A DNA stretch of 64,000 nt from Desulfomarina profundi (lineage in GTDB: Bacteria; Desulfobacterota; Desulfobulbia; Desulfobulbales; Desulfocapsaceae). The stretch covers positions 310,001 to 374,000 of the forward strand of contig NZ_AP024086.1 of the NCBI RefSeq assembly GCF_019703855.1, written 5' to 3'. The notes beneath the pieces were generated by a model. It worked only from the letters and a program-made list of their open reading frames with translations, was not told the origin of the DNA and made no database searches. Of the stretch, positions 24,828 to 51,840 are shown one piece after another; positions within the stretch are counted from its first letter, which is position 1; every line of letters begins with the position of its first letter. The position numbers and the translations under genes were made by a program.

Positions 24828-24984
24828 GTAAGTGATCAGGGGTACTGCATATTCACACGGTCGCAACTGCCCGCATAGATGGGCTATAGTGGCCAGTCAC
24901 GCCTGCACGAATCTGCGGCTCTTCAGCTCATTTACAGGTTTGATGTGATGAAAACACAGAGTTGCAAATCCTGTGACCAATTAC
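24828..24984. mobile_element. MITE-like palindromic element, family C copy 1
   Basis: About 157 bases from TAAGTGATCAGGGG to CCTGTGACCAATTA, nearly identical to 35923-36077. The interior folds on itself (GACTGCCCGC-type arm opposite GCGGCCAGTC). The ends are imperfect inverted repeats (TAAGTGATCA-GG and TAATTGGTCACAGG). No gene lies in the remaining part of the 400-base gap between fdhC and mobB. A short GAGAAATGCGGG motif follows at 24999-25010. Confidence 0.7.
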
Positions 24985-34045: not shown

Positions 34046-34435
34046 TTATGGTTTCCTGAGAACAATAACTCCCCGTCTACCGAGTTCACGCAGGAAAGCG
34101 GTGACGGATTGTTCCGCCTCCTGAATGGAAAATCTTTTTGTTTCTGCAAATTCTTCAATAAGTGTTTTGACGTTTTTTTTCCCGTCTATCATGCACCACA
34201 AGGTGGCTCCCAGTTCATCGAGCTCCAGTTTTTTTGTCGGTTGCAGTTCCTGTTCCCTTTGGAACCGGCGGGCAATTTGCAGAAAAAAGGGTTTGATATT
34301 CAATGGATATTCAATTCTGATTACACCGTTGTCCATTCGTTTCCAGTCGATGTCAGGCAGATGGCAGGGCGTGCATGCCAGTGATTCGGTCCTGTCCATG
34401 GGTGGGGCGTTTTTTTTAGATTGAAACAGTTTCAT
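34046..34435 (-). CDS. PqqD-family protein
   Basis: About 129 residues; the last 60 (LDELGATLWCMIDGKKNVKTLIEEF ... FLRELGRRGVIVL) match the PqqD winged-helix fold that binds precursor peptides for radical-SAM enzymes. The preceding part has CTPCH and a conserved-looking IRIEYPLNIKPF. No radical-SAM enzyme or precursor peptide is visible nearby, so this is an orphan PqqD that may serve another role. The start at 34435 overlaps the upstream gene's end by 20 bases, so the two are coupled. Its stop codon lies in the target duplication of a MITE. Confidence 0.8.
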   Translation of the reverse strand: MKLFQSKKNAPPMDRTESLACTPCHLPDIDWKRMDNGVIRIEYPLNIKPFFLQIARRFQREQELQPTKKLELDELGATLWCMIDGKKNVKTLIEEFAETKRFSIQEAEQSVTAFLRELGRRGVIVLRKP

Positions 34436-35273
34436 ATTCTGGTTGGTTCGGAATACATATTTCGGGAGGAATGGGTTGTGTCGATTCAGCCACCATGGAA
34501 AAAAGAGTGTTGTTATCCGGGTCATGCTGAATTGAAGCCCGGATAAACGGTTTTTGTCGTTTGAGCCGGGATAAGACTTGAAATGTCATGGAAGGATATC
34601 GGTACCCTCCACAGGAGAGATCCGTGCGGCCGTTTTTTATTTCATTTTCGGAGAGACCTGAGAGGACAGCAAGAATTTCCTGCAATGACTGGTTTTGGAG
34701 TCTGATATCAGCCGGACTCAGTCTGCTGCAGTGGAGGTCGAGTTTTTTCAACCTGAACGAGAGGCAGCCAAAACCCGGTCTGAAGGAGAATTTATGTAGA
34801 ATAAATGTGGACGGTAAAAGCAGATCTGATCCCTGAAAAGACCAGAGATGGGGTTCTTCCTGAAGAAAATGGCATGAGAGTGAAGAGAGGGCAGCAAGAG
34901 GGGCAGCAAGGTTTTTGTCACACTGGTTCAAATGAAAGAGAATAAGTTTTCCACATGTTTTGCAGGAGAGAATGCCGCCTTCCGGACCGGGTGTCTCCTT
35001 TTTACCGTAGCAAAAGATATGATAGTGTTTCTTGAGTGAAAAGAGTTTTTCTTCAATCTGTTTTTCTTCGATGTCGTTGTTTTGTTTCTGCAGTTTCCTG
35101 AGCATCGATTGGTGTGTAGCCGGTTTACGGGAGTCAGGAATTTGCCAGCGTATTTCCAGCAGAGGCTGAAAATCTTTTTCAAAAATCAAATGGGTATGGC
35201 CATTGATATGCAAGGTCCAGGAACGGGGAACTGTCAGGCGGATACCATTCCATCCCACATGGGTTGTGTTCAT
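34416..35273 (-). CDS. Unknown protein encoded with the PqqD-like protein
   Basis: About 285 residues from ATG 35273 (an in-frame GTG at 35318 would overlap the preceding gene). It is soluble with no signal peptide. Seen: an N-terminal beta segment with WNGIRLTVPRSW and HTHLIFEKDF, a Lys/Glu-rich helical stretch, a CKTCGK pair near the middle, and a C-terminal part with LSGLSENEI and CGGYRYPSM. I do not recognise the family. Its overlap with the PqqD-like gene suggests that the two proteins work together. Confidence 0.65.
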   Translation of the reverse strand: MNTTHVGWNGIRLTVPRSWTLHINGHTHLIFEKDFQPLLEIRWQIPDSRKPATHQSMLRKLQKQNNDIEEKQIEEKLFSLKKHYHIFCYGKKETPGPEGGILSCKTCGKLILFHLNQCDKNLAAPLAALSSLSCHFLQEEPHLWSFQGSDLLLPSTFILHKFSFRPGFGCLSFRLKKLDLHCSRLSPADIRLQNQSLQEILAVLSGLSENEIKNGRTDLSCGGYRYPSMTFQVLSRLKRQKPFIRASIQHDPDNNTLFSMVAESTQPIPPEICIPNQPEYETVSI

Positions 35274-35289
35274 GGCATTATCTATCTGT

Positions 35290-35886
35290 TCAATCGGGGA
35301 TGAGATAGGACCAGTCACTTTTTTTCAGGTCATTTTTCTGTAGTGCAGAATTTTTTTCATGCATTTCATCACACATCCGGTTGAAGCAGAGTCGTTCTTC
35401 TTCTATGCGTTCGGGATAGGATAATTTGATGACATTGCCGATGGTTTCGTTTGGATCTTTGGCATTGAACTGGAGACTCATGCTGACACGGTTCTGGTCC
35501 TTATCAATAAAATGCCATTTCCATACGTGCAACAGGCCGAAGGAATCTCCGTTCCAGGAGTCGGGGGCGCCGAATTTTGCCCGGAATTTTTTGAGCAGCT
35601 TTTTATAAAAGGACTTGGATTTATCCGCGTATTTCAATCTGATTCTGAGGATTTCATTTTTATATCTGCAGACGCCGTAAGAGATAATGCCTTTCCTGAA
35701 GCCATGCCTGTCTGTAATGACAACTTCTTTCATAAAATTGGACTGTACTATATCCGGGTATTCACTAATCTGTGTTCCCAGTGAAATGCCCCCTACAGAA
35801 TGGGGAACAGATTCAGCGGCAAATGATACCGAGACAAGCAGTAGAAAAGACAGTAGAGTCAGACTGGCTATATGATATTTCCTCAT
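35290..35886 (-). CDS. Secreted protein of unknown function
   Basis: 198 residues with a signal peptide (ASLTLLSFLLLVSVSFAAES, cleavage after SFA). The mature part is rich in basic and aromatic residues, with LLHVWKWHFIDKDQNRVSM and two Cys near the C-terminus (RLCFNRMCDEM), and is probably periplasmic. The opening VGGISLGTQISEYPDIV resembles small periplasmic proteins found next to enzyme or transport genes, but no family is named. It is the first gene of a three-gene minus-strand set with the unknown protein and the PqqD-like protein. Confidence 0.7.
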   Translation of the reverse strand: MRKYHIASLTLLSFLLLVSVSFAAESVPHSVGGISLGTQISEYPDIVQSNFMKEVVITDRHGFRKGIISYGVCRYKNEILRIRLKYADKSKSFYKKLLKKFRAKFGAPDSWNGDSFGLLHVWKWHFIDKDQNRVSMSLQFNAKDPNETIGNVIKLSYPERIEEERLCFNRMCDEMHEKNSALQKNDLKKSDWSYLIPD

Positions 35887-35922: not shown

Positions 35923-36077
35923 GTAAGTGATCAGGGGCACCGCATATTCGCACGGTCGCGACTGCCCGCATAGTGGACTATAGCGGCCAGTCACGCCTGC
36001 ACGAATCTACGGCACCCCTGATCACTTACAGGGGTAGGGTAGATGAAAACACAGAGTTGCAAATCCTGTGACCAGTT
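35923..36077. mobile_element. MITE-like palindromic element, family C copy 2, flanked by 10-bp direct repeats
   Basis: Nearly identical to 24828-24984. The first 20 bases (GTAAGTGATCAGGGGCACCG) are matched in inverse at 36010-36029 with two differences, and an inner arm pair (GACTGCCCGC / GCGGCCAGTC) follows. ACGTTTGCAG occurs at 35913-35922 and again at 36078-36087, directly flanking the element, which looks like a target-site duplication. Confidence 0.75.
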
Positions 36078-36139: not shown

Positions 36140-38098
36140 TCAGTAGGCCATATGACCAAGGGATTTCATGATCAGGGCAAAGCCCATGGCAAACATACCA
36201 CTCAGTCCCATCCCGCAGGAAAAACCGGCAAGCAGGACCGGCGCATATTGTCGCCACATGGAGCCGTATTTTTTCAGGAAAAAATAGCGGCCAAGAAGAG
36301 CACCTGCCACTTCCAGTATCAGGCCATGGGGAGTGGACTGGCCCAGGCCTCGTACGACACCGTAGATCAGCAGGACCGGGAGGCCGAAAATACTGAGGAC
36401 AGCATACATGATGAGGCCGAACCCAAGGCCGGAGAAAACCGTCGCCCCGTTGAGTGCCTGGTAGAACATTGAATTACCTTCCAGGGTAGATGTCTGCATG
36501 AGCAGGGTATTGAGGGCCTGCAGGTGCCAGAGTTCCTGGGCAAAGGGGTAACTTGCCGACGGGATCGGCGCCAGTCGCCAGATGAACTGAGAGAAGACAA
36601 GGCTTGCTGTCATTACAATGGGAAAAACCAGTAGTTCCGCTTTGATAATGCCCCTTATTGAAGTTCCTGTCAGTTCAATCTGCCTGAACTGGACGGTGGC
36701 TTCTCCGTAATTGTGGATGGGAATGGGGGCATACCATATTTCAATACCCTGGTAGCCGAAGAATTTTGCCCCGGCTATGAAACTGGCCTCTCTTACAAGG
36801 GGAAGACTGACAAACTGTCCTGCTATTCCTTCCATTCTGGCGGTAATATAGGAAATAACCGGGGTATACACAAAACCGTAGGCAAGAAAAAAGAGCCATG
36901 GAAAAGAAGGAACCAGCCAGACACAGAGCCCCACGTAGGCAAGGGTCGAAAAAAAATAGATGGCGATGGCGATCCAGAAATTAAAATCACCCCTGCCCGG
37001 AGGAGGATTGAAAAGGTCTTTTAATGTACCCCTATTGCCTTTGGAGTTACGGATGGAATGAATAACTGACCAGACGCCGATAAAACCAATGGCAAGACCG
37101 AGACCAATACCAAAACTCATGTAGAAATCAAAATTATTGGCGAATACTGTATCCACTGTAGCCATTCCCGGGTGCCAGCGGTGGAGGATACCGGCGGAGT
37201 AGAGCAGGGGGTTGAGAACTATGGTGATGATGAGCCCGATAAAACCGCCTATAACAGCCCAGAAGGGAAGGACCATTCCGACAAACAGCAGGCCGAGATC
37301 AAGTTGCAGGCCTGTGGCAACAGCGGGCAGAAAATCTTCTGTATAGCCGGTAAGTTCAATCCATGGAATGGGGATCAGTCGAATCTGTTCCGTGAAAATC
37401 AGGCCGGAGACAATGGGTAACAGGACGTAAATTGAGCCAAACCCAAGACCGATGACTCCACCTATGGAAAAGACACGCCATTTCCAGCTTGCCTTTTTTT
37501 CCTCGGCGGACTCGGCAAGGGCCATTGTACCGAGTGCTGCAACCGGAGCCATGGGGAAGGGCAGTTTCTCCACATCCGAGGTGATTCTATAGAGGGCGTA
37601 ACCCAGGCCGAAATGGTCAATACGCTGGATAATCTGCGAGCCGACAAGGAGCAGAATAGGGATCAGCCAGTCCCTGTGGAAAAAGCTTCTTTCTATCATT
37701 GATGGTGAATCCGGTCCGGGAGCGACCCAGCTGGGAATGAATTCGGTTACACCAAGCATACGCGCGGCATCTGACTGGACCAGGTACTGGTTCCAGAGCA
37801 GACCGGAAAATGGTGAGGCAAGGGCGGCACCTGCCATATAATAGAGGAGAAATATTTCCTGTTGCTTGAGGTCAGAGTGGGCACGTTTGGCAATTTCGGC
37901 AAAGAGAATAATGGTGACCCAGCGTGCAGCGGGGCCAATACCCTGGCCGATTACCAGTTGCAGATACATGGAACCCGGCATCATCAAAAAGCCGATAAAA
38001 ACGGCACCGATGATAGTCTTCCAGTCGAACCCTTCCTCAAAATGGTCGGGGGGAGGGAGCAGATCCCGGTATTCTTTCAGTTCCTTGTCATCGTACAT
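36140..38098 (-). CDS. OPT-family-like polytopic membrane transporter
   Basis: 652 residues with about 14-16 hydrophobic helices and a 25-residue charged N-terminus (DDKELKEYRDLLPPPDHFEE). It resembles the oligopeptide transporter (OPT) superfamily in helix number, in GLGYALYRI and ARMEGIAGQFVSLPLVREASFI, and in the glycine-rich helix ends. In that family, members move peptides, siderophores or metal chelates. It is the last gene of a five-gene minus-strand operon (from 46431), 43 bases after a second OPT-like gene. A heterodimer with that protein is a reasonable inference. The substrate is unknown. Confidence 0.75.
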   Translation of the reverse strand: MYDDKELKEYRDLLPPPDHFEEGFDWKTIIGAVFIGFLMMPGSMYLQLVIGQGIGPAARWVTIILFAEIAKRAHSDLKQQEIFLLYYMAGAALASPFSGLLWNQYLVQSDAARMLGVTEFIPSWVAPGPDSPSMIERSFFHRDWLIPILLLVGSQIIQRIDHFGLGYALYRITSDVEKLPFPMAPVAALGTMALAESAEEKKASWKWRVFSIGGVIGLGFGSIYVLLPIVSGLIFTEQIRLIPIPWIELTGYTEDFLPAVATGLQLDLGLLFVGMVLPFWAVIGGFIGLIITIVLNPLLYSAGILHRWHPGMATVDTVFANNFDFYMSFGIGLGLAIGFIGVWSVIHSIRNSKGNRGTLKDLFNPPPGRGDFNFWIAIAIYFFSTLAYVGLCVWLVPSFPWLFFLAYGFVYTPVISYITARMEGIAGQFVSLPLVREASFIAGAKFFGYQGIEIWYAPIPIHNYGEATVQFRQIELTGTSIRGIIKAELLVFPIVMTASLVFSQFIWRLAPIPSASYPFAQELWHLQALNTLLMQTSTLEGNSMFYQALNGATVFSGLGFGLIMYAVLSIFGLPVLLIYGVVRGLGQSTPHGLILEVAGALLGRYFFLKKYGSMWRQYAPVLLAGFSCGMGLSGMFAMGFALIMKSLGHMAY

Positions 38099-38141
38099 TC
38101 AATACCTTTTCAATTCTGGAGCCGGATGGTTTGGTCAGTCC

Positions 38142-40142
38142 TCAGTTGGGAAGGACTTGGTAACTTGTATCAGCAAAAAGACCGATCAATGCCCAGCCGC
38201 CTCCCATGAGGAAATCTCCAATTATAAGACCGATAAAAAAATACTGTAGTTTCCTGAAAAGTGTAATACCCCCATATCGCATGCAGAGAGCGTTGCATGC
38301 CCAGCCGATAAAAAAACTGACCCATAAAATCCGCATTGCGGAGCTGTAAGCTGTCAGGTAACCAATGGGGTGGATTGGCCACCAGTAGAACCTGTGGTAA
38401 CAGGTCACCAGGATCAGCATGAGCACTGCACCTGTGATTGTAAAAATAAATACCCAGCCACCTGTGTCGGGGGCTGTTGTGGCAAGACGATAAATATTTT
38501 CATAAACCGAAAGAGTTGTGCGTGTTGCCCAGTCCAGTTGCAGCTCACGGATACCAAATCGGTAGCAGAGAAGGAGCATCGCCAGGATTGAAGTAGCCAT
38601 GGATGCTGTAATGGTTACAGCCAGAGAGGTAAACAGGATAATAACCGGTTTTCTACCCTGGTGGAGGTGACGGGCATGGAGGAGCGAAGGCATGAGTGAT
38701 TCTCTCAGGTCGACAAAGAGCATCTTCTGGCTCATACCTGCCAGCAATCCGTTTGTTCCTGCAAATATTTTAGCACCGAAGAGGGCGATGATTCCATCTG
38801 TCGGTGCGGCGGTCAGGGTAAAATAGGCAATGCCCCCCTGGCAGATAATTCTGGTGGCTACCAGCATTATCATAAAAAAGGCTCCTGTGACCATGGTTGC
38901 GGCAAGAGGTGTCATGCCCAACTGGACATACCAGCAAATGATGAGAAATATTCCGATGAATGTTCCCCAGAAGGAAATACGCACATCGACCAGGCCGGAA
39001 TGTTCAGGGTCTGGTTTTTTCAGGAAGAACGACTGTTTGCAGACATCAAGGAGATGTTGTCTTGCCAGCCACACCAGGAAAAAAAAGAAAATACCGTAGG
39101 CTCCAATCATCTGCATTTCTTCAGGTCGAGCCAGGGTTGGTCCAAAGGTAATGCCAAGTTCTGATGCGGGTATTGAGTAGCCTAGCAGATCAAGAATACC
39201 ATAGAGAAGGGCACCAAAAAGAAAGAAAAACCAGAAGGAAAAGGAAATCTGCCTCGATGTGAGAAAAGCAAAGCCGATAAATGCCGGATAAATATATATT
39301 TTCAGTTTATGAAAGCCGGTGAAAAGACCGGAAGCAGGAAAATAGGGTCCGGCGAGAATAAGGGTGGGGATTGCCGGGACAGAAGGAAAGTAAAGATTCA
39401 GTCCGTTCAGAAGATGAAGCATGACTGGTATGGAGAGGCCGAACAGGAGGAAGCGGTTCAGAAAAAAATCCGCAGTGGTTCCACTGTCCACAGCTTTGCT
39501 GATCATCTCCGGTACCTTGAGGAGGGGGAAGTTCATACGTTCATTTTCAATCCACTGTCTGGCGAGAAGATTGATTAGAAAGAGCATGACACTGTAAGAG
39601 AGGAGAACAAAAACAGACCAGGTGCCAAGGGGAACAAGCCATGCGGACCATGGAATCTTCGGTATCACTTCCAGCCAGCTCATGCTTCTGCCACCGGCGA
39701 TACCGTTGTAGAGCTGCTCAATTGCGGCATGGTCGGAGGGAATCAGGGATGGGGGAATGAGAGGATGAAGAGTCTCCTGCCAGCGATTTCCCATGGAGGC
39801 AAAGTGGACGGGTGCTGTGAGGTTTACCAGAAAGGTTCGGGCAAATCCGGTATAGGCGATACCTGAGCCTATTACCGTTTCTATCCAGATGATCAGAAGC
39901 TCGGACCCTGTGAGCAGTAGTGAAGTTTTGAACAGTCGGGAAATGAGGGTGATTACCAGGGCCAGCAGGATGAATATGAAAAACGGTGCCAGGGGGAAAT
40001 GACCACCGCCCAGGGGAGTTGCCTGCATATAGATATTATTATAGGGTGTGAGCAGACATATCCCCATGGCAAGCAGGATACCGATAATTCCGGCTCGCAA
40101 CCTGATGGGTTGTTTCCTTTTTTTCTCACCACTGTTATTCAT
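38142..40142 (-). CDS. Second OPT-like membrane protein (DUF6785/DUF6784 type)
   Basis: About 666 residues, again with about 14 membrane helices. An N-terminal YNNIYMQATPLGGGHFPLAP segment and the WSVFVLLSYSVMLFLINLLARQWIENERMNFPL region are typical of the DUF6785/DUF6784 proteins that accompany OPT-like transporters. The ATG at 40142 has GGAGGG just upstream and overlaps the stop of the giant permease gene by eight bases, so translation is coupled. The upstream extension to 40211 is not used. Its role is presumably transport together with the next gene; the direction and cargo cannot be told from sequence. Confidence 0.72.
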   Translation of the reverse strand: MNNSGEKKRKQPIRLRAGIIGILLAMGICLLTPYNNIYMQATPLGGGHFPLAPFFIFILLALVITLISRLFKTSLLLTGSELLIIWIETVIGSGIAYTGFARTFLVNLTAPVHFASMGNRWQETLHPLIPPSLIPSDHAAIEQLYNGIAGGRSMSWLEVIPKIPWSAWLVPLGTWSVFVLLSYSVMLFLINLLARQWIENERMNFPLLKVPEMISKAVDSGTTADFFLNRFLLFGLSIPVMLHLLNGLNLYFPSVPAIPTLILAGPYFPASGLFTGFHKLKIYIYPAFIGFAFLTSRQISFSFWFFFLFGALLYGILDLLGYSIPASELGITFGPTLARPEEMQMIGAYGIFFFFLVWLARQHLLDVCKQSFFLKKPDPEHSGLVDVRISFWGTFIGIFLIICWYVQLGMTPLAATMVTGAFFMIMLVATRIICQGGIAYFTLTAAPTDGIIALFGAKIFAGTNGLLAGMSQKMLFVDLRESLMPSLLHARHLHQGRKPVIILFTSLAVTITASMATSILAMLLLCYRFGIRELQLDWATRTTLSVYENIYRLATTAPDTGGWVFIFTITGAVLMLILVTCYHRFYWWPIHPIGYLTAYSSAMRILWVSFFIGWACNALCMRYGGITLFRKLQYFFIGLIIGDFLMGGGWALIGLFADTSYQVLPN

Positions 40143-43100
40143 ATCCCTCCATTTTTTGTGCGATGGTATCCCGGAACAACCGTTCCAGTTCTCCATGTGT
40201 TTCACTGTCAATGGAACGCCAGATCAGGAGCTGTTTTCTGAGTTCATGGAGAAAGGATTTGTTGATTCGCCGCCAGACGCCGGATTCTCCGGAAAACCGT
40301 GTCAAAGAAAGTTGTATTTCAAGAAAATCACTCTTGTCCCCTGTTGGACGGAACCCGATTTCAACCTGTTGCATGATACCGAAATCAAAAGGAGCCAGCC
40401 AGACCTTTGTACTGATGTGCAGCCAGCTCGGGTTACTTTCTGTTTTAACGTACTTGCGGGATTGTGCATGGATCTTTTCCATTTCATCCAGGGTTGAACA
40501 GTAAAGCTGTACATTCACCGGCCCTGTGGAGAACAGTCCATGGGAGATATCCTGGTGACCCTGCAGATAAGTGTAGAGGAATGCGCCGACAGACTCATAT
40601 TCATGTGGTTTCAGCAGAAACGGCAAGGTGAGTTCCATGGTGTTATCAACAGCTGTGGGCAGTTGAAATGTCTGGTTGATATCGGGAATGGCAATACGCG
40701 CAGCCACTTTTGAAGGGTAAATAACGGAAATAAGGACAACGGCAATAACCAGGACCATGGCAGCAACACCGGCCATGGAAGAATAGTTGACTGTGATCCC
40801 CTGCCAGAGTGATGTTGACGAAAAAAGGGCTGCTGAAACCTGGGCAACCAGGTAGCCCAGGACCACGGATATGACGGCAAGGGCGATGGCCTCGGCAACA
40901 AACAGAAAACTGACATGGGAGGGGGCCAGCCCCACGGAGGTATAGACGGCTATCTCACTTTTCCGTTCGTGGACAGAGCTGATCATCGTGTTCAGGACAA
41001 TGAGAATGGAGATAAGCAGGGGGATGATAATATTGGGTACTCCGCTGTAATTCATGGTGTCACTGATATTGTAGAGACGGACTCCGTCCTTTTCGCCGGT
41101 AAAAATTGCCAGGTTGAAGCGATCCGTCAGCCTGGAGGCTATCGCGGGAATATTTTCCACCCGGGCTGGTCTGATTGCCAGATTTTTCAGCTTACCGCCT
41201 GCGGCCAGCAGGGTATGGGCAGGAATAATGGCAACCTGATTCGCGGGAATATGCCGATACCTGCTCTGGAAGGAGCGGATATCATCTCCGGACTCCAGGG
41301 CATCCTGCTCCACATCAGTGAGGTCCGATGTCGATTCATCAGGGAAGATTACAGGGGTCAGTGGCTCCCCGTCCAGATCGACTGCCTGGTCAAACTGCTT
41401 TCCATTAAAAGTGCCGATCACAGTAAAGGGAATACCCCACAGGGAAATTTGATTGTCTGAGTGAATGTCCACTCCCAGTTGTTCGGCCATCTGTTGTTCA
41501 AGAAGAATAGCCTGGTTGTCCCGATCTGTGAACCAGCGCCCGGAGATGAGCAGGCTGTCAAGCCCGGTTACCGCCGCTTCGTTGGGGCTGAGCCCGATCA
41601 GGCCATGTATCTCAAGTTCCCGGCCGTTTTTTCGCAGCGGGACGGTGACCGGCTTTGTAGGATCCCCGGTTTCAAGCCAGATACGGGGCGCCGGTTTATT
41701 CACTCTCGTCATGCTGTTTAAGAGAATATCCGTTGCCTGGGGAGGCAGGCTCTGCCAGTTGAGTTTTTTCAGGAGGAGCCCCTGGTAAGGAGCATCAGCT
41801 CGAAAATCAAGACGGACCTGTTTGCTGTTGGATTTGATGGTTGTAAAACTCATTATCGTAAAAGTGAGAATAATGAGCGTAGTACAGGTGAGAATGGTTC
41901 GCAGTCGTCTTCTTCTTAAATTGGAAACTCCGAGAAAAAAGGCGGCCACAAATGCCTTCCAGCGGCTGATTTCGTCGGGACGTTTATGGGTGGCCCTTCG
42001 TTGGAGAAGAATCATTTCATCTTCAAATCTGAAGAAAATGATGAGGGTAACCATGAAGGAGAGTCCGATGATGAAAAAAGCGAGAATGACCACCAGCGGG
42101 CTGTAGGCCAGTTCAAAGGCCGGGTGGACATTGTATATGAGAGTTATAAGAATGACAAGAATAAGAAAAAAGCCACTGATTCGTTTGTATATGTGGTTGA
42201 AGTTAAACAAAAAACGTTCCATTACAAAGGCAAAGGGAACAAAAAGTGCTATGTAGAAGAGAACCCCGAAGAGTACATCTTTCTGGGTTTTTTCTATCTG
42301 CACATAGACTCTTGCGGCCAGAGCCAGGGATTCGGCGCTGTTTTTACGGCTTTTGGAGTAGATAAGTTTCTGTAGAGATTTTTCGCTTTTTTCCAGAGCT
42401 CGCAGTCCTCTGGTTTTCAGATCATTGATTTTCTGATCAAAAATCCCATGTCGTTCAAGATTTTTAATACGGGGGGTAAGCAGGGTCCAGGCATCCCTTG
42501 CCGCGTGGAGTACTGTATTGGGAATTGACGGGTACATTTCAACCGGATAACCTGTTCCCAGTGGATTCTTTTTTGAACCGTTGGTGAGGATCATCTTATT
42601 GGTCAGCACAGTATCAGACAGGGTCAGTTTCAGTCGTGTTCCCGCTTCCGTGTAAATGGACGAGATGATGGAATCCCTGGTGTCGATCCTGCTGTACCAG
42701 AAATGCTGGGGTGGGCCGTCCCGTCGGCCATCGTAGAGATGCAGTTTAGTCATATGGGCGAAGCTTCGTGGCTCGAGAAGATCAAAAACCGTGGTTTGCA
42801 GACATTTGAACAGGATCAGGTCCGTTTTCATGGATTTTCGCAGAATCTTCAGCCGGTAATTGACCTTTCCTGTTTCTTTTTTATCTATAGCCCAGATAGC
42901 TTTACCCGTTGCTTCATCAAATCGGTATCCTTCGATAATCAGTTTGTCGAGAACATTTTTTTTGTCGGCAAACCCCTTGATACGGAAATAACCGGATTCG
43001 TCGACCATGGCATAATAACGATTGAGGCCCTGGTAGGCGAGAATGGTGGTTTTTCTGGCTGGATAGTCGGCAAAGAGTTCACCCTGGAGAAGCAGGTTGG

Positions 43101-44973
43101 TCCGGGCCGTCAGGGTGGAAAAACCGTTTCGGGGAAGTTTCTCGCCATGGAGTTTTGGCGCTTTGGTTAATTTCCGGATGAGTTTGTCGACCAGGTTGGT
43201 TTGGTCATGGAGGTAGGACCAGTTTATATGGTCTGTCGTATCGTAGGGAGTTCCCCAGAGGATTCTGCTGTCTCCAGTGGTGACAAGGCTGAGGCCAAGG
43301 TATCCCCCGAGAGCGCTCACCTCCCCTCCGAGAACCGGTTTGTCAAAGAACCAGGAATCCCAGCTGCGCATCCGTGTTGGCCTGAGACTGTTCTGGTAGC
43401 GGGCAAGAGAGGTGGCAGCCGTTTTTGTTGTTTCAAAAATATCAGCAACGGTACTGTAGATTCCGGTTCTGTTGATGGTTTTTTTCAGGGGATAGAGCCA
43501 GCCCCTGTGAAATCCTCCAACACCGTTCCCATGACTGGAGAGATGCAGGCTGACAATGGCGGCCACTTCTTCATATTCCCGGACTTGCGACCGAAACGCT
43601 TTGGCTGATTTCAGAGCTTTGAGCTGGCGTTTTGCATCCTGAATGCTGAGTTCATTTTTCTCCATTGCCGACGGGATGATTTGTCTGAGCATGTCCATCT
43701 GCCGGCTATCCAGGTTGTGAAAATCTTCAACCCATTCCAGGCGGCGGTAGGATATTCTTTCTTTGGCAAGTTCCTTGATCATGACTGAGGTATCTTCCGT
43801 CTGTCTGGCGAGACGTAACTGCATGAGCTTGGTGGCAAGACGGTCTACACGCAGTTTCAGTTCCTGTTCTATTGCTTTTTTCAGACGAAGATCTCTTTGT
43901 TTATCTGCGGTAAGAGGAAAATGTATATTTTTCAGCAAATTCAGGTTTCTGTTCCTGGTCGATATAGTTTTCTGTAGTTTTCTCCTGTATTTACGCAGTT
44001 CTCTGGAACGTTCATTCATACTCCATATGGCGTCCCGCATACCGGCAAGAGTCTGGCTGTTACCGCTGGTGGCCAGGAGCATGACCGTGCGATCCGGTGG
44101 AGATTTTTTCAGCTTCCTGCCAATTTCCAGAAGAGTTGCAATAGAAATTGCGCTGTCGGCACCTGGAGAGTCCTCCGTTACATATTCTTTATTGTCAAAG
44201 AATGCTTCAAGGATCAGCAGTTCCTTTTTTAATGTGGGATCGTTACCGGGAATAATCGCATAAATATTGCGGGCAAGGTAGTTTTCCCAGACAGTTGAAG
44301 AGCGCAGTTCCACCCGGCCGACAGGTTTGCTGTCGAGGGATTTTTCCTTCAAAGGGCCGAAAATTTCGTCAGCCTTCATCCGGCTCATCCAGAAGCATGG
44401 AAACTGAACAGGTGAGAGTTCGTGTTTTTCTGTAAAAAACACTTTACCCTTCGGTTCTCTGCTACCAACATAAATAAGAGCCCTGGCCCCTAAAGAGGCA
44501 AGCAGTTGCCAGTTATGGCCCGAATCAAAGTCCATGAGGATGATTGAATCCCGAATCTTTTTCCCATCCAGATCCTTGAGATCACCATGACGAACATAAT
44601 AGAGCGAGCCGGATAGCGTTCCGTCAGTAGCTTCAGGAGTAATTGTGTTATAAATGAATGGTTGGAGAGGGAGAGTTTTTCCATTGAAGGTGAGTTGTGC
44701 TCCAAGAAAACGGCGGACAGGAATTTCATAGTACTGGGAGGCTGGTTCAAGTCCCATTGACTGCATTTTCTTCTCAACATATTCCGCAGCCTTTTCATAC
44801 CCTCTGGAACCGGTTGTTCTGCTTCCGTATCTGCTCAATTCTTCAATTGTTCCACGGACGGAATCTCCGGTATTTTGTGTTTCGGCCATTACCGAAGTGT
44901 TCCAGACGAGACTGGTGCATAGCGTACAAAAGAGGTAGAAGACGGGAAAAAAGGGCCGAAGAAATAAAGTCAT
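40135..44973 (-). CDS. Giant fusion: M28-like pseudopeptidase plus FtsX/MacB-type ABC permease
   Basis: About 1612 residues. A signal peptide (VFYLFCTLCTSLVWNTSVMA) leads into an M28-aminopeptidase-like domain with a PA-like insertion and a long coiled-coil insertion. The zinc-ligand positions appear changed: HxD is FFD in LEAFFDN, the GADDNASG site reads GADSAIS, the EE pair reads GN, the LDM aspartate reads LHL, and the final HTPxDT reads GTPYDT. The second half has three membrane helices, then two FtsX-type blocks (LRRRRLRTILTCTTLIILTF; ISILIVLNTMISSVHERKSEIAVYTSVGLAP) around a periplasmic MacB-like domain, and a 150-residue tail. It is the large permease partner of the adjacent ATPase. 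The start at 44973 is favoured over GTG 45069 because it begins the signal peptide. Confidence 0.8.
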   Translation of the reverse strand: MTLFLRPFFPVFYLFCTLCTSLVWNTSVMAETQNTGDSVRGTIEELSRYGSRTTGSRGYEKAAEYVEKKMQSMGLEPASQYYEIPVRRFLGAQLTFNGKTLPLQPFIYNTITPEATDGTLSGSLYYVRHGDLKDLDGKKIRDSIILMDFDSGHNWQLLASLGARALIYVGSREPKGKVFFTEKHELSPVQFPCFWMSRMKADEIFGPLKEKSLDSKPVGRVELRSSTVWENYLARNIYAIIPGNDPTLKKELLILEAFFDNKEYVTEDSPGADSAISIATLLEIGRKLKKSPPDRTVMLLATSGNSQTLAGMRDAIWSMNERSRELRKYRRKLQKTISTRNRNLNLLKNIHFPLTADKQRDLRLKKAIEQELKLRVDRLATKLMQLRLARQTEDTSVMIKELAKERISYRRLEWVEDFHNLDSRQMDMLRQIIPSAMEKNELSIQDAKRQLKALKSAKAFRSQVREYEEVAAIVSLHLSSHGNGVGGFHRGWLYPLKKTINRTGIYSTVADIFETTKTAATSLARYQNSLRPTRMRSWDSWFFDKPVLGGEVSALGGYLGLSLVTTGDSRILWGTPYDTTDHINWSYLHDQTNLVDKLIRKLTKAPKLHGEKLPRNGFSTLTARTNLLLQGELFADYPARKTTILAYQGLNRYYAMVDESGYFRIKGFADKKNVLDKLIIEGYRFDEATGKAIWAIDKKETGKVNYRLKILRKSMKTDLILFKCLQTTVFDLLEPRSFAHMTKLHLYDGRRDGPPQHFWYSRIDTRDSIISSIYTEAGTRLKLTLSDTVLTNKMILTNGSKKNPLGTGYPVEMYPSIPNTVLHAARDAWTLLTPRIKNLERHGIFDQKINDLKTRGLRALEKSEKSLQKLIYSKSRKNSAESLALAARVYVQIEKTQKDVLFGVLFYIALFVPFAFVMERFLFNFNHIYKRISGFFLILVILITLIYNVHPAFELAYSPLVVILAFFIIGLSFMVTLIIFFRFEDEMILLQRRATHKRPDEISRWKAFVAAFFLGVSNLRRRRLRTILTCTTLIILTFTIMSFTTIKSNSKQVRLDFRADAPYQGLLLKKLNWQSLPPQATDILLNSMTRVNKPAPRIWLETGDPTKPVTVPLRKNGRELEIHGLIGLSPNEAAVTGLDSLLISGRWFTDRDNQAILLEQQMAEQLGVDIHSDNQISLWGIPFTVIGTFNGKQFDQAVDLDGEPLTPVIFPDESTSDLTDVEQDALESGDDIRSFQSRYRHIPANQVAIIPAHTLLAAGGKLKNLAIRPARVENIPAIASRLTDRFNLAIFTGEKDGVRLYNISDTMNYSGVPNIIIPLLISILIVLNTMISSVHERKSEIAVYTSVGLAPSHVSFLFVAEAIALAVISVVLGYLVAQVSAALFSSTSLWQGITVNYSSMAGVAAMVLVIAVVLISVIYPSKVAARIAIPDINQTFQLPTAVDNTMELTLPFLLKPHEYESVGAFLYTYLQGHQDISHGLFSTGPVNVQLYCSTLDEMEKIHAQSRKYVKTESNPSWLHISTKVWLAPFDFGIMQQVEIGFRPTGDKSDFLEIQLSLTRFSGESGVWRRINKSFLHELRKQLLIWRSIDSETHGELERLFRDTIAQKMEGYE

Positions 44974-45019
44974 AAAGGAGAAGATTCCGTTTTTCAAGTT
45001 TGTTGGACGGGGATTGAAT

Positions 45020-45760
45020 TTATGTATCGGCTGTTTCCAGTTTGCCGGTACGTATATTGAGTTCTTCACGCTGCTGTACTTTGTCTATACGTCCATCCCG
45101 TATCCAGACGACCTGGTCGGAAACATTAAGCATTTTGTAATCATGGGTGGCTGAAATGACCGTGACACCACGTTCCACACTGAGTTCTTTAAGCATGCTG
45201 ATTATATCTTCTCCGGTGGTGAGATCCAGATTGCCCGTCGGCTCGTCCGCCAGTATGATTGATGGTGTATTGGCAAGGGCCCTTGCAACGGCGACCCGCT
45301 GCTGTTGTCCGCCGGACAGTTCTGATGGCCGGTGACCGTGTCGGCCGGAAAGTCCCACCTGTTCAAGCAGGGCCATTCCTCTGTCCAGAGCCTCATCACT
45401 GCCTACTCCGGCAAATGTCATGGGCAGGGTAATGTTCTCAAGAGCTGTCATGACGGGGATAAGGTTAAATGTCTGAAAAATATAGCCGATTTTCCGGCAG
45501 CGGAGCCAGGCGAGTTCATAGGCATCCAGTTGAGCGATGTCCACCTCATCAATGAACACTTTACCACTGGTCGGTTTGTCGAGGCCGCCGATCATATTGA
45601 AAAGGGTTGATTTGCCTGAGCCGGAAGGTCCCATGATGGAAATGTATTTTCCTTCTTCAATCTCAAGGTCGATTCCCTTCAGTACTTTTACAACGATTTT
45701 GCCCAGGTCAAAGTTTTTGGTGACTTCACTGACTCTTACTATTTTTTTTGTATCAGCCAT
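45020..45760 (-). CDS. LolD/MacB-type ABC transporter ATPase
   Basis: 246 residues. Walker A GPSGSGKST (44-52), Q-loop YIFQTFNLIP, signature LSGGQQQRVAVARAL, Walker B IILADEPTGNLD and the switch His in SATHDYKML. The sequence is closest to the LolD/MacB/FtsE class, which drives mechanotransmission or lipoprotein export rather than solute import. It lies between a short FtsX-type permease and the giant permease fusion, so these three should form one complex with a 4-TM small subunit and a large one. Confidence 0.95.
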   Translation of the reverse strand: MADTKKIVRVSEVTKNFDLGKIVVKVLKGIDLEIEEGKYISIMGPSGSGKSTLFNMIGGLDKPTSGKVFIDEVDIAQLDAYELAWLRCRKIGYIFQTFNLIPVMTALENITLPMTFAGVGSDEALDRGMALLEQVGLSGRHGHRPSELSGGQQQRVAVARALANTPSIILADEPTGNLDLTTGEDIISMLKELSVERGVTVISATHDYKMLNVSDQVVWIRDGRIDKVQQREELNIRTGKLETADT

Positions 45761-45780
45761 TTTAAAAGTTATTTATTGTC

Positions 45781-46431
45781 CTATTGTTCAACCCGCATTG
45801 CTTCAACAGGACGCATGCGGGCCGCAATTATTGCCGGGTAGAGAACACCCAGAAGACTTAAAAATGTTCCTGTGCACACCGTGATGGCCATGGTTATGCC
45901 TATAGCACCCCATGGGATAAATGGAAAAAATGAATATCCAAATCGTGCAAGAGAAGTCACAAGTGCGGAGAGAGCTCCCAGGAAAGATCCGAGAACGGAT
46001 CCGCTTATTCCCATTATTGCAGCTTCAAGAAGAAAAATCCGGACGATGAAGTGATCCAGGGCTCCCAGGCATTTCAAAGTTCCTATTTCCCGGAATCGTT
46101 CTGTAACGGACATCAATTGGGCATTTACAATACCTACAACACAGACAAGAAGGGAGAGAAAAAGTATCCATTTCTGTTTGGCAGAGCCGGTAACTGCGCT
46201 CTCTCCCGGTGAGATGTCAAAACCTATTCTGGTGAGAACATGGACCAGTTCCGCGTCTCCGCTGGAGAGAGCACCCTGGGCAATATTATTACCAACCTGG
46301 ATAAATGCGAGAAAGGCAACGGCCAGGACAAGGCTCATGGTGGTGACCATTGATCGGAAGAAACGGACACGGATTGACTGGTAAGCCATCTGGATGGATT
46401 TGCGCAAAGGAAGTTCTACTAAGCGTCTCAT
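45781..46431 (-). CDS. Short FtsX-type ABC permease
   Basis: 216 residues with four helices. The first (VTTMSLVLAVAFLAFIQV) is followed by a reduced periplasmic part of about 60 residues (DAELVHVLTRIGFDISPGESAV) instead of the usual large MacB domain. The FtsX core (SVTERFREIGTLKCLGALDHFIVRIFLLEAAIMG) and the closing YPAIIAARMRPVEAMR box follow. It is the first gene of the operon, 20 bases before the ATPase. The reduced extracellular domain suggests that sensing or substrate handling is done by the giant partner. Confidence 0.88.
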   Translation of the reverse strand: MRRLVELPLRKSIQMAYQSIRVRFFRSMVTTMSLVLAVAFLAFIQVGNNIAQGALSSGDAELVHVLTRIGFDISPGESAVTGSAKQKWILFLSLLVCVVGIVNAQLMSVTERFREIGTLKCLGALDHFIVRIFLLEAAIMGISGSVLGSFLGALSALVTSLARFGYSFFPFIPWGAIGITMAITVCTGTFLSLLGVLYPAIIAARMRPVEAMRVEQ

Positions 46432-46520: not shown

Positions 46521-47326
46521 TCATTTTGTCTTGTCAATGGTACTTCCGGCAGGAAGTAAATCATTGAAAAGAACAGGAACCAAAGAGGGGCAACCTGCCA
46601 GTTTTTCAAGGAGGATATCCAGAAAATCAAAGGCTCTTTTGTTCATTCGCTGGTGATGAATCATTACGCCGAATTGTCCTGAATGAATACCTTGTTCCAG
46701 TTCGTTCAGCAGGTTTACAAATCCAATGGCGGCTGACTGTTCTTTCCTGGTATGGAGATCAACATTGACCTGGATATCAGGAAGTGCTGGTATCGTTTGC
46801 GGCTCGGCCCATCGCTTCGTGAAAGAGCCATGAAGTTGAGATCAGCAAGGGTTTTAATGGTCACCCTACTGCAACGGTTCCAGGGGGGAGTGAAAATGGG
46901 TTGAAATTCAGGACCAAGCAGCGTTTCCAACCTTTCTTTTCCCAGTCGAAGACTTCTTTTGATCTCATGTTCTGCCCGGGCGGGGCCAAATTCCTGTTTC
47001 TTACCTTTTCTTTCAAAATTTCTGTGCTGGTAACCGTGCTGATGCCAGCACCATTGGGAGCTGTTTTTCCCGGTGATGTCCTGAAGGATTTTCAATCGTT
47101 TTTCCGTAAGCCAGGTGGGAACCGTAGCAAGGCAAAGGGGCAGCTTATGGCGGAGAAAACAGGTAATAAGCTGTTGGAAATTTGAAGAGGGAATGCCGAT
47201 ATCATCAGCCCGGAAAAAAACAGGTATGGGAGATGAAGCCTGTTGGCATAACCTGTCTATCAGGGCAGCAAGATCTGATTGTATTGTGTTCGTTGCAAGG
47301 CTATAGAGGGTGGCTGTTTTGCTCAT
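46521..47326 (-). pseudogene. Polysaccharide deacetylase-like protein, interrupted by one frameshift
   Basis: The first part (47326 down to about 46810) shows VFFRADDIGIP, LCLATVPTWL, WCWHQHGYQHRNF and FTPPWNRCS, matching the NodB-like deacetylase fold with its Asp and His metal residues. The frame is lost after LSRSDG and resumes as AEPQTIPALPDIQVNVDLHT and MIHHQRMNKRAFDFL to a TGA at 46521-46523. One extra G in the GGG run near 46808-46810 restores a protein of about 268 residues. It probably removes acetyl groups from a cell-surface glycan made by the neighbouring glycosyltransferases. The frameshift may be an error in the sequence. Confidence 0.78.
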
Positions 47327-47394: not shown

Positions 47395-48543
47395 TTACTT
47401 GAACAGTCCAGCGGTTCTTCTAGCACCGTCAAGATCAATATCAGCAGGCTGTCGTCTGCAGGGAAGCATTTCCATTATTTTTTTTCTTAGCTTTTCCGGG
47501 GCAAGATCACTGTCTTTCAGCAGGCGGACGGTACTGTGGTGTTCCAGGGCAAGTGCCCGCATTTTCTGTTCCCTGTTCTGGTTGAACGGATGGACCAGCG
47601 CGGGAATTTCCGCCCGGAGCAGATTCATGCAGCTGTTGTACCCAGCCATTGAGATTGAGAGATCAGCTGCTTCGAGCCAGGATGGGAAAATATCTGAAAA
47701 CGTATCAACACGGATTTTTTCTGTTTGACTGTTTTTCAGTTTTTTATGAAAGGATTTCCTGCTGAAGGGGCCTGTAAATATCTGCAGAAAAAAATCTGTC
47801 TGTCTGGAGAGTAATCTGCAACCTGCCATGACCGCCTCAAGGAGTTCTCCCCCCACACTGCCGCCGCCGATACTGGCAACAATAAGGGGGGTGGATTCTT
47901 TCAGGTTCAACATTTTCCGTATTTTTTTACGGGCATTGAGCGGTTCAGGGCGGGGCGGACAGATAAAACCGGTATATTCCAGAGGAATTGTTATTTCATT
48001 TAATCGTTCAAAAGTTCTGTCAAGGGTAATTACCTTCGGATCCGCGTGGATAAATATACCATCATAAAATGTGTTCAGTGTTTTGATGACCCTGTCCTCG
48101 AATTTTTTCTTTCCGCCTGTTTTCTCAACCAGGATGTCGCGGACACTGGAGTAATTCCGGCAGGGTGGCAGGGAACCATCTTTTATTCCGTTGAGAACAG
48201 GGTCAAGCTCAAACCTGAAAGCTTTTCTGCCGAAGGGATAGAGCTCGGTGATAAATACCTGAGGGCGGTATGTCCTGAAATGGGAAAGAAGCAGCTCTTT
48301 TCTTGTTTTTTTGACTTGTTCAAGGTTCAGACCGGTCTCGCAGGGTGCCAGATTCTTGAAATCACTGTCCATCTGCAGGCCAGGGAGAGTGAACAGGGAG
48401 AAGGCTGATGGTGCAGGAGTTGTTTTCGGGCCACCGAGTATTAATGTCACCTCATGTTTTTCAGCGAGCAGGCGACAGATTTCCAGGCTGCGATGGAGAT
48501 GGCCTACACCCAGTACATGCTGGCAGTAGAAAGAGATCCTCAT
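47395..48543 (-). CDS. Glycosyltransferase of the COG4671 / MurG-like type
   Basis: 382 residues, GT-B fold. The N-terminus has CQHVLGVGHLHRSLEI (glycine loop like MurG). The C-terminal half shows ASIGGGSVGGELLEAV and LSISMAGYNSCMNLLRAEIPALVHPFNQNREQKMRA, the nucleotide-sugar binding region of MurG-like enzymes. It is a paralogue of the 50439-51689 gene (shared GVGHLHRS/GLGHIRRT and SMAGYNS/SMGGYNT). The ATG overlaps the phosphatase stop by four bases. The acceptor and sugar are unknown. Confidence 0.85.
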   Translation of the reverse strand: MRISFYCQHVLGVGHLHRSLEICRLLAEKHEVTLILGGPKTTPAPSAFSLFTLPGLQMDSDFKNLAPCETGLNLEQVKKTRKELLLSHFRTYRPQVFITELYPFGRKAFRFELDPVLNGIKDGSLPPCRNYSSVRDILVEKTGGKKKFEDRVIKTLNTFYDGIFIHADPKVITLDRTFERLNEITIPLEYTGFICPPRPEPLNARKKIRKMLNLKESTPLIVASIGGGSVGGELLEAVMAGCRLLSRQTDFFLQIFTGPFSRKSFHKKLKNSQTEKIRVDTFSDIFPSWLEAADLSISMAGYNSCMNLLRAEIPALVHPFNQNREQKMRALALEHHSTVRLLKDSDLAPEKLRKKIMEMLPCRRQPADIDLDGARRTAGLFK

Positions 48544-49169
48544 CTCTTTTCCCCACACGGAATATTAAGTTGTCGTGTCGAAAGATTACTACCGTCACCG
48601 GTGATGAGATGGAGCCTGTCGGGGTTGAGCAGTGGGTCGTCAGTCGGAAGAAATTTTCTTCCGGTAATTGCATAAAGGGTACACTTGATAACACCCTGGT
48701 GACAGACAACGAGGATATTTTCTCCAGGATAAGCACGGGCAAACTCATGTAGTGCTGCAGATGCGCGTTCCTGCACTGCCTGTCGTGTTTCTCCGCCTGG
48801 CGCACAAAATGCCCATCCTTTTTTTACCCGATTTTCAAGTTCTTGTTCGAAATGCGCCTTTACATGGGAAATAGTCAGCCCTTCCCATTCTCCCCAGCTC
48901 TGCTCTCTCAGGCGGTTGTCAAATTCTGTGGGGACATTCAGTTGTCTGTTCAGAATTGCCACTGTTTCCCGTACCCTGCCGAGATCACTGGCTATGATCC
49001 TGTTCCAATTGAAATTTTTAAGAAAATGAGCCCAACGGGTTGTTTGTTTTCGGCCGTCAACCGTTAATGGAGAATTACGGCTTCCCTGAATTTTTTTTAC
49101 TGTATTCCATTCGGTTTGACCATGTCGCAAGAGACCGAATGTTGTGATGTTGAGGGTTTGTTTTTCCAT
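48540..49169 (-). CDS. Histidine phosphatase family protein
   Basis: 209 residues. It has the RHG motif (LLRHGQTEWN, His16), EQSWGEWEGLT, GGETRQAVQERA and a second His in VVCHQGVIK, the four-part active site of the phosphoglycerate-mutase/phosphatase branch. In a sugar-nucleotide cluster it could remove phosphate from a sugar phosphate such as a heptose or GlcN precursor, but this is inferred from context. It overlaps the next glycosyltransferase by four bases and starts one base after the end of the previous one. Confidence 0.9.
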   Translation of the reverse strand: MEKQTLNITTFGLLRHGQTEWNTVKKIQGSRNSPLTVDGRKQTTRWAHFLKNFNWNRIIASDLGRVRETVAILNRQLNVPTEFDNRLREQSWGEWEGLTISHVKAHFEQELENRVKKGWAFCAPGGETRQAVQERASAALHEFARAYPGENILVVCHQGVIKCTLYAITGRKFLPTDDPLLNPDRLHLITGDGSNLSTRQLNIPCGEKR

Positions 49170-49170
49170 T

Positions 49171-50442
49171 TCAATTCAATGGCATTTTGAGTTGTTTATT
49201 TTCCTGAAGGAATGTTTTTCCCAGTTTTTTGACCCATTTTCTGTTGTCAAATTCTGATTCTACAAATTTTCTGCCATTTTGTATGAGGGTACTGCGCAGA
49301 TCCTGGTCCCTGAGAATTTTTAAGGTCGCTTCTGCCAGCAGGTCCGGTTGGGAGGGAGGAACCGTAAGACCTGTCTGTCCGTTTATTAAAATCTCAGGAA
49401 TGGCTGAAATATTCGTTGAAAGGGCGGGGACGCCCATTGCCAGGCTCTCAACCAGAACATTTGGAATTCCATCACGATCACCATTTTCAGCGATTCTGCA
49501 GGGAAGAACAAATGCATCGCTCTTTTTAAACTGCTCTATGACTTCTTCATGGGTCCGGGTTCCCAGCCAACAACAGCAGGAGTCGAGGCCGAGGGATGAA
49601 ATGAGCTGCAGAATTGCATCCCTGTCATCACCATCTCCGATAAGTGTATGTTTGAATACTACACCCTTTTTTTTCAGAATGTTGAGAGCGTCGTACAAGA
49701 CCGGTAAACCTTTCTTTTCGGTCATCCTGGCTACGGTCATTATTTGATAGGGTTCTTTTGGGGTAACCTGTGCCCTGGTCTGCTGAAAAAGGCTGATATC
49801 TATACCGTGATAGATTCGAAAAACTGGTGTTGCAGAGCTGCCGGCAATTTTTTTCAGGTATTTTTCATTGTACGCCGTGCAGGTTGTCACAAACCTTGCC
49901 AGTTCAATTTTTCTTTTCAGTTTTTTTTCGGCAGAAGTATAAATATCCTTGGCATGGGCTGTGAAGCTGAAGGGAATTCCAGAGAGGAGCGAAGCAAACA
50001 GGGTGACCGAAGTGGGTGAATGGGCGAAATGACCATGGAGATGGACAATATTCGGATCTTTCATCAGGAAGTTATGGGTCAGATAACCACCCTGCAGCAG
50101 GTGTTTAAGGGTGGCCAGGTTTCCTTTGCCAGCGGTTGACTCCCTGCAGCCGACCAGGGCGGTGAGGAAATTTTGCGGTCTTTTAACTGCCAAGAAAGTG
50201 TTGTGGTAAAGAAGGGTCGAGAAATTTTCAAAAAGTTCGGTGGGAAGATATTCGACCTCTGCCTGAATTTCTTTCACTGAAGCATGACAGAAACTTTCCC
50301 TCGGTTTTCGCATGGGAAAGAGACGCAGAGTGAAGCCCATTTTCTCAAGGAGCAGTATCTCATTGGAAATAAACGTTTCGGATATTCTCGGGTAACCTTT
50401 AAGTATATAGCCTAATACCGGTTTGTTCTGGTTTGGAATCAT
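49171..50442 (-). CDS. GT4-type glycosyltransferase
   Basis: 423 residues with a GT-B fold. The N-terminal acceptor half has GYPRISETFISNEI and HLHGHFAHSPTSVTLFAS. The C-terminal donor half has VARMTEKKGLPVLYDAL, IGDGDDRDAI and the E-x7-E region (LPCRIAENGDRDGIPNVLVESLAMGVPALSTNI in outline). It is similar to the WcaL/colanic-acid type in the start sequence. It overlaps the upstream GT by four bases. It probably transfers a hexose to a lipid-linked or glycan acceptor. Confidence 0.92.
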   Translation of the reverse strand: MIPNQNKPVLGYILKGYPRISETFISNEILLLEKMGFTLRLFPMRKPRESFCHASVKEIQAEVEYLPTELFENFSTLLYHNTFLAVKRPQNFLTALVGCRESTAGKGNLATLKHLLQGGYLTHNFLMKDPNIVHLHGHFAHSPTSVTLFASLLSGIPFSFTAHAKDIYTSAEKKLKRKIELARFVTTCTAYNEKYLKKIAGSSATPVFRIYHGIDISLFQQTRAQVTPKEPYQIMTVARMTEKKGLPVLYDALNILKKKGVVFKHTLIGDGDDRDAILQLISSLGLDSCCCWLGTRTHEEVIEQFKKSDAFVLPCRIAENGDRDGIPNVLVESLAMGVPALSTNISAIPEILINGQTGLTVPPSQPDLLAEATLKILRDQDLRSTLIQNGRKFVESEFDNRKWVKKLGKTFLQENKQLKMPLN

Positions 50443-51689: not shown

Positions 51690-51840
51690 GGTGCAAAAAG
51701 AGCAAAATTTCAAACTGAATTCAGACTGAATTCAGAAAAAGTATTGGCTTCAGTGAAAAGGAAACTCTTGACTCTTATTCGAAGAGAGTAGACTTGTCAA
51801 GGCGTACCGAGGTTTCTTTGTGCTTCCTGCTGGAAGAAGT

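Follow-up and report, generated by a model that had tools for sequence, protein, structure and literature searches.

Introduction

Type VII ATP-binding cassette (ABC) transporters such as MacB, LolCDE, FtsEX and BceAB couple ATP binding and hydrolysis to permease motion that does work in the periplasm, with no cargo carried across the membrane, as described in the available excerpts of two papers (PMC5985334, PMC12646458). Here we analyze a five-gene locus, g8-g7-g6-g5-g4, built around a transporter of this type in Desulfomarina profundi. The locus occupies positions 36140-46431 of the 64,000-nucleotide stretch of contig NZ_AP024086.1 that was analyzed (the window). This set of uncharacterized membrane-transport genes is co-inherited as a unit, together with sugar-attaching enzymes, in scattered bacteria of the sulfate-reducer phylum, and it probably encodes an ATP-driven machine that delivers a sugar-bearing molecule to the cell envelope.

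The locus shares with the Type VII ABCs its FtsX domains, a separate LolD/MacB-type ATPase, a four-transmembrane (TM) core and, in g6, a putative periplasmic core domain. The second permease, g8, has no periplasmic domain and in this resembles one half of BceB, for which the lack of that domain is reported as a likely feature in the part of the source available (PMC5985334). What sets it apart from the Type VII ABCs described is a pseudo-M28 arm of 865 residues with three additional TM helices on one permease, g6, together with two apparently obligatory polytopic partners, g4 and g5. In YbbAP-TesA, too, a Type VII ABC works with a periplasmic protein of hydrolase-type fold, but there, according to the excerpt available (PMC12646458), the hydrolase is separate and active, whereas in g6 the M28 fold is inactive and forms one polypeptide with the permease. 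The kind of motor is known; the architecture and the obligatory partners are new.

The arm of g6 shares its fold and its PA-type insert with M28 aminopeptidases, the transferrin receptor and nicastrin. It differs from these relatives in its long helical hairpin insert, its extra beta domain and stalk, and its fusion to an ABC permease. The receptor-like members of the group, the transferrin receptor and nicastrin, are also inactive. An earlier note on this DNA, made from the sequence alone, held that no described system is known to combine the families found in the five genes. Our searches of open-licence papers found no description of the system; they returned nothing on DUF6785 or DUF6784, nothing on three or more of the OPT family, FtsX, M28 and Desulfobacterota at once, nothing joining an M28 peptidase to an FtsX-like permease or a Type VII ABC, and nothing combining DUF2334, a glycosyltransferase and an ABC transporter.

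Results

The five genes are conserved in order and inherited together

The five genes are consecutive on the minus strand:

45781..46431, minus strand: g8, short FtsX permease of 216 residues without a periplasmic domain (Pfam FtsX, 61.2 bits)
45020..45760, minus strand: g7, LolD/MacB-type ATPase of 246 residues (ABC_tran, 118.8 bits)
40135..45069, minus strand: g6, M28-like/FtsX fusion, called from Pfam, the fold model, motif reading and TM prediction
38142..40211, minus strand, TTG start: g5, polytopic membrane protein with DUF6785 and DUF6784
36140..38098, minus strand: g4, polytopic membrane protein of 652 residues, a possible distant OPT relative

Gaps of 20 nucleotides (g8-g7) and 43 nucleotides (g5-g4) separate neighbors, and g6 overlaps g5. 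A GTG start gives g6 1644 residues and a 50-nucleotide overlap with g7; the ATG at 44973 gives 1612 residues and a gap of 46 nucleotides. The layout is thus as first described, with overlaps or short gaps throughout. Pfam also upholds the FtsX, ATPase, M28-like/FtsX and DUF6785 labels given earlier: FtsX scores 61.2 bits in g8 and 45.6 bits in g6 (cut-off 25.5), Peptidase_M28 in g6 scores 32.0 bits (cut-off 21.3), and g5 exceeds the cut-offs of DUF6785 (557.7 bits) and DUF6784 (124.4 bits). The OPT label for g4 did not hold at this level, with no Pfam or NCBIfam match. The earlier note had proposed that an internal promoter or terminator would break the operon. Scans for both were at chance level (16 against 15.9 expected; 20 against 16.6 expected), so the operon is neither split nor joined by them. 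In the organism's own genome (4.31 Mb, a single contig), a search with g5 gives one match.

To define the conserved order among related loci, contigs were scanned with g4, which yielded 204 relatives, and the best 80 loci were retained (g4 identity 80-95%). By title these are desulfo-, delta- or Syntrophobacterales records, or proteobacterial ones with loose names, and cultured carriers among them include Desulforhopalus singaporensis DSM 12130, Desulfogranum marinum DSM 2058 and Desulfatibacillum alkenivorans DSM 16219. Synteny was counted where the flank upstream of g4 reached 8.3 kb or more, as in 56 loci; the other 24 of the 80 have shorter flanks and were excluded. The order g8-g7-g6-g5-g4 on one strand was found in 52 of the 56, which answers the objection that homologues of the five genes might usually not be neighbors. 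The four exceptions are L039 and L058 (no g8 match), L056 (g4 alone) and L070 (no g6-g8). Because only the best 80 of the 204 relatives and genomes of the organism's own phylum were examined, we do not claim that the set is restricted to Desulfobacterota.

Whole-genome co-occurrence was measured in 296 genomes of the window's phylum with completeness of 90 or more. g4 is present in 21 (69-84% identity outside its own genome), with nothing weaker at E<=0.001. The g5 profile matches the identical 21 genomes, as does full-length g6, the other g6 matches listed by E-value covering the FtsX end alone. The g6 match is in two pieces in G034 and is cut by a contig end in G119. Thus g4, g5 and full-length g6 share 21 genomes and occur in 0 of the 275 others (Fisher p 1.3e-32, uncorrected for relatedness); a single stop-containing DUF6785 fragment, below the Pfam cut-off, was seen in the non-carrier G001. 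Among the carriers, g8 was found in 21 of 21, and g7 adjoins g6 in all 21, the window included.

Families f2, f36, f40 and f87 each contain both carriers and non-carriers, indicating joint gain or loss of the whole set. Three contigs carry g8, g7-g6 and g5-g4 in G222 and in G262, with every piece retained; g4 stands apart from the rest in G068, and about 12 kb separates g6 from g5 in G094. Pairwise distance matrices of g4, g5, g6, g7, g8 and two upstream genes described below, u4 and u5, are correlated (r 0.59-0.97), and at most 1 of 1000 permutations reached the observed correlation. After identity and length limits the matrices held 17 rows for g4, 19 for g5, 21 for g6, 18 for g7, 14 for g8, 15 for u5, 19 for u4 and 11 for u2. 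These correlations fit common inheritance and are by themselves no proof of contact. A tblastn search of plasmids gave no match for g4 or g5 and one partial match for the g6 arm, a Sphingomonas M28 metallopeptidase. Taken together, g4-g8 very probably act as one functional unit.

The motor resembles Type VII ABC transporters

We consider it very likely that g7, g8 and the FtsX core of g6 form a Type VII (MacB/LolCDE/FtsEX-type) ABC transporter in which g8 and g6 make an unequal permease pair. The g7 translation shows intact Walker A, signature, Walker B and H-loop motifs. Between the hydropathy-predicted TM stretches 1056-1074 and 1347-1365 of g6 lies a putative periplasmic core domain (MacB_PCD, 26.8 bits, slightly below the cut-off of 27), which g8 lacks. 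None of the NCBIfam cut-offs of LolC/E, LolD, FtsX, FtsE, MacB or YbbA was reached: the best model for g7 was LolD (227.4 against a cut-off of 307.75) and the closest for g8 was LolC/E (52.4 against 362.45). The earlier suggestion that the FtsX/ATPase part is a mechanotransmitting complex is supported as far as the permease pair and ATPase are concerned, and the mechanism itself would follow from membership in the Type VII family.

The arm of g6 has the fold of an M28 peptidase and lacks its catalytic motifs

The g6 protein comprises a signal-like start, the M28-fold periplasmic arm, three extra TM helices that connect the arm to the FtsX core, the core itself and a C-terminal cytosolic part. 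In the prediction, the arm spans about 865 residues; its M28 aminopeptidase fold holds both a PA-type insert and a long helical hairpin, and it is accompanied by a beta domain and a helical stalk. A structure model of residues 62-930 reached a mean predicted local distance difference test (pLDDT) score of 91.8. Its closest solved structures are M28 aminopeptidases: 6hc7 (Z 26.6, root-mean-square deviation 5.5 over 368 aligned positions) and 1cp7 (Z 25.9, deviation 2.4 over 240). The transferrin receptor 3kas follows at Z 24.9, and sequence profile comparison agrees with the M28 fold. This comparison ran mainly over the M28 part and gave the beta domain (about 641-845) no fold assignment.

The HxD and EE motifs, which hold the zinc and catalytic residues of M28 enzymes, are lost in 29 of 29 aligned g6 homologues: F, S, P or R stands in place of the HxD histidine, and none has the EE pair. 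The modeled arm is thus an old, inactive enzyme fold, and the periplasmic pseudopeptidase proposed earlier was borne out by Pfam, by a Z score of about 26 and by the missing motifs. The most conserved regions of g6 are its membrane parts, where mean pairwise identity is 0.81 in FtsX TM1, 0.68 in the extra TM1-3 and 0.67 in TM2-4, against 0.25-0.50 in segments of the arm.

g4 and g5 are probable partners of the motor

The earlier note had described g4 and g5 as two OPT-like proteins. Like OPT transporters (PF03169), g4 is of similar size, has many TM helices and gives a weak, co-linear profile match: by hhalign against an alignment of six OPT proteins, E is 6.9e-4 over 408 columns with a probability of 26.7%. 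The score of 38.8 exceeds the maximum of 100 chunk-shuffled OPT alignments (34.4) and of the reversed ones (15.8). On the other hand, hmmscan of 45 g4 members (E<=10, filters on) found no OPT and no Pfam or NCBIfam family. Searched against 148 genomes, the Pfam OPT model matched the g4 orthologue of G068 below its cut-off (E 7.9e-4), and matched neither the g4 of the organism's own genome nor that of other carriers in this sample. Remote homology of g4 to OPT is thus suggestive only. For g5, the hhalign score of 24.8 against OPT lies inside the shuffled range (up to 36.8).

No similarity between g4 and g5 was detected by hhalign (E 0.17; the score is exceeded within a set of 60 shuffles). Against PDB sequences, profile searches returned two chance-level matches for g4 and none for g5, and an AlphaFold2 model of g4 was of low confidence (pLDDT 40.4). 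Sequence conservation of g4 is high, with 69-95% identity to the window protein and a mean column identity of 84% over 45 rows from many families. Over the 80 loci, mean identity is 85.5% for g4 and 77.9% for the ATPase g7, the latter lowered by some paralogue matches. Judged from their shared distribution, g4 and g5 appear to be obligatory partners of the ABC motor.

A glycosyltransferase module lies upstream

Directly upstream of g8, outside 36140-46431, five genes (u5-u4-u3-u2-u1) follow each other on the same strand with short gaps or overlaps:

50439..51713, minus strand: u5, GT28-type glycosyltransferase, in every carrier genome
49171..50442, minus strand: u4, GT4 glycosyltransferase (best NCBIfam model EpsE, below cut-off)
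48540..49169, minus strand: u3, histidine phosphatase
47395..48558, minus strand: u2, GT28-type glycosyltransferase
46563..47326, minus strand: u1, DUF2334-like deacetylase (DUF2334 below cut-off), split over two frames

At E<=1e-60, a threshold that we chose because GT28 paralogues are common, u5 was found in 26 genomes: 21 of 21 carriers (39-100% identity) and 5 of the 275 others (G011, G052, G102, G211 and G287; 37-39% identity). In 12 of the 21 carriers, the window included, the stretch of about 3.5 kb upstream of g8 contains a u2-type GT28. In having u4, u5 and u2 of these superfamilies, the locus resembles exopolysaccharide-type loci (EpsE-like GT4, MurG-like GT28). It differs from them in its linkage to a Type VII ABC with g4 and g5, and no NCBIfam equivalog cut-off was reached by u2, u4 or u5.

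Matches to homologues of u1 run down to 46796-46814 in one frame and continue to 46563 in a different frame, and the two homologues compared are single open reading frames of 270 and 272 residues. The frame split may reflect a pseudogene or a sequencing error. In G023 the module (L173:8417-16006) has two extra genes between its members, by eye glycosyltransferase-like and radical SAM-like.

Accessory genes lie downstream

Three further genes lie downstream of g4:

35290..35886, minus strand: g3, accessory small protein with a hydrophobic (signal-like) N-terminus and no Pfam family
34416..35318, minus strand: g2, accessory protein of 300 residues, no Pfam family over cut-off
34046..34525, minus strand: g1, accessory PqqD-domain protein (32.4 bits, cut-off 23.4)

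At least one of g3, g2 and g1 occurs in 44 of the 57 loci having at least 2.5 kb downstream, and all three in 37 of the 57. By whole-genome search g2 is in 9 of 21 carriers, with two short stop-containing matches outside them (G083, G162). In G023 a PqqD domain occurs immediately upstream of g8 as well; g1 reached no NCBIfam equivalog cut-off.

In some loci an MsbA-like ABC exporter and a cNMP-domain protein stand between g4 and g3 in either orientation (L008:12039-15117, L009:14874-17991, L012:12494-15560). The exporter family occurs in 29 and the cNMP family in 25 of 84 clustered loci. Both best models were below cut-off: MsbA for the exporter, and a bacteriocin-transport-associated model for the cNMP protein (E 1.6e-5). 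The organism's own genome carries exporter homologues elsewhere (39-50% identity).

In the window, g4 is separated from g3 by a near-perfect palindrome of 107 nucleotides (35923-36029; fold -82.6 kcal/mol, z -9.2). It is a genome repeat: counting this copy, 16 near full-length ones reach at least 87% identity, and weaker copies and fragments occur besides. Another copy lies in the window at about 24828-24938. As a hairpin, the palindrome would be expected to break the transcript between g4 and g3. Additionally, a protein that by eye is response regulator-like (L109:5642-7087) recurs near the loci in 8 clustered genomes.

Discussion

The reading we favor, to which we give an even chance, is that of an envelope machine powered by ATP and acting on a glycoconjugate. 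The linked GT28 and GT4 enzymes suggest the cargo, which may equally well be a glycoconjugate as something else. In such a machine u5, u4 and u2 would assemble, at the cytoplasmic face, a glycan carried by a membrane acceptor, and g4 and g5 would hold or translocate it. The g7 ATPase would drive movement of g6 and g8, and in the periplasm the pseudopeptidase arm of g6 would receive the product and hand it on. That g4 and g5 are the translocating element is a tentative assignment, somewhat less probable than its opposite. Both a physical g4-g8 complex and the direction of transport are things we infer. Support is very strong for the unit, strong for the motor, moderate for the cargo and weak for this division of labor.

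Several observations weigh against a glycoconjugate. Co-inheritance with glycosyltransferases is no proof that the transporter carries their product, and the distance correlations largely mirror common descent. In carrier genomes u5 is often distant from the set, and 9 of the 21 lack a u2-type GT28 in the 3.5 kb upstream of g8. A flippase, polymerase or initiating sugar-phosphate transferase was not recognized in the recurring set, although genomes were not searched for them. The accessory genes g1-g3 are not universal, g2 being in 9 of 21 carriers, and the whole-genome sampling covers one phylum. Finally, a PqqD domain and an M28 fold suit a peptide at least as naturally.

This last point leads to the rival reading that comes closest to the earlier note's idea of a peptide ligand, a machine for a peptide or for a ribosomally synthesized and post-translationally modified peptide (RiPP). 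Here the inactive M28 arm would bind a peptide, the accessory exporter or OPT-like g4 and g5 would move it, and the PqqD protein g1 would serve as a chaperone. The M28 fold of the arm fits this, as do g1, whose PqqD match is above cut-off, the PqqD domain upstream of g8 in G023, the weak OPT similarity of g4 and the sub-cut-off match of the cNMP protein to a bacteriocin-transport-associated model. However, neither g1-g3 nor the exporter is universal, the best model of the exporter is MsbA (below cut-off) rather than a peptide exporter, and no precursor peptide or maturation enzyme was recognized among the recurring neighbors, beyond which no further search for them was made. The universal extra partner that was found is a glycosyltransferase. 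We regard a peptide machine as unlikely. For the peptide ligand of the earlier note, the direct evidence consists of the M28 fold and the PqqD neighbor, the latter outside 36140-46431, and linkage points also to the glycosyltransferase module, which that note did not include.

A lipid or lipoprotein extractor also seems improbable. The ABC would pull a lipidated molecule from the inner membrane, the arm would present it to a partner, and g4 and g5 would act on the lipid by modifying or flipping it, with the sugar genes incidental. LolD and LolC/E are indeed the closest models of g7 and g8, and in YbbAP-TesA a periplasmic hydrolase is coupled to a transporter of this type, according to the excerpt available (PMC12646458), but g7 and g8 fall far below the LolD and LolC/E cut-offs, and the co-inheritance of u5 would be left unexplained. 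Very unlikely is a sensor or regulator of envelope synthesis, BceAB/FtsEX-like, in which the arm senses or activates a periplasmic enzyme, the ABC transports nothing and g4 and g5 are separate nutrient transporters under the same control: non-catalytic M28-fold receptors such as the transferrin receptor exist, and Type VII ABCs include sensor or regulator systems according to the part of the source available (PMC5985334), but g4 and g5 never occur without g6 in the 296 genomes, which separate nutrient transporters would not need.

Type VII ABCs are defined by their partners; those found here are an unusual receptor arm, fused to the permease, and two obligatory membrane proteins of unassigned function, one from a DUF family and one outside Pfam. 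Given the exact co-occurrence in 296 genomes and a conservation of g4 close to that of the ATPase, the module must have a specific task. Should the cargo prove to be a glycoconjugate, this would provide a first function for DUF6785, DUF6784 and the g4 family, and a new way to power glycan or glycolipid export in the environmentally important bacteria of the sulfate-reducer phylum. Known routes of export include the Wzx/Wzy, ABC-2 and synthase-dependent ones. A more far-reaching proposal, and an unlikely one, is a new class of envelope export in which a g4/g5 translocase, with g4 in no assigned family, is physically driven by a Type VII ABC, with the dead-peptidase arm as carrier and, as cargo, a glycoconjugate made by the co-inherited glycosyltransferases. 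If true, a mechanotransmitting ABC would power translocation by partner proteins, another route beside these three.

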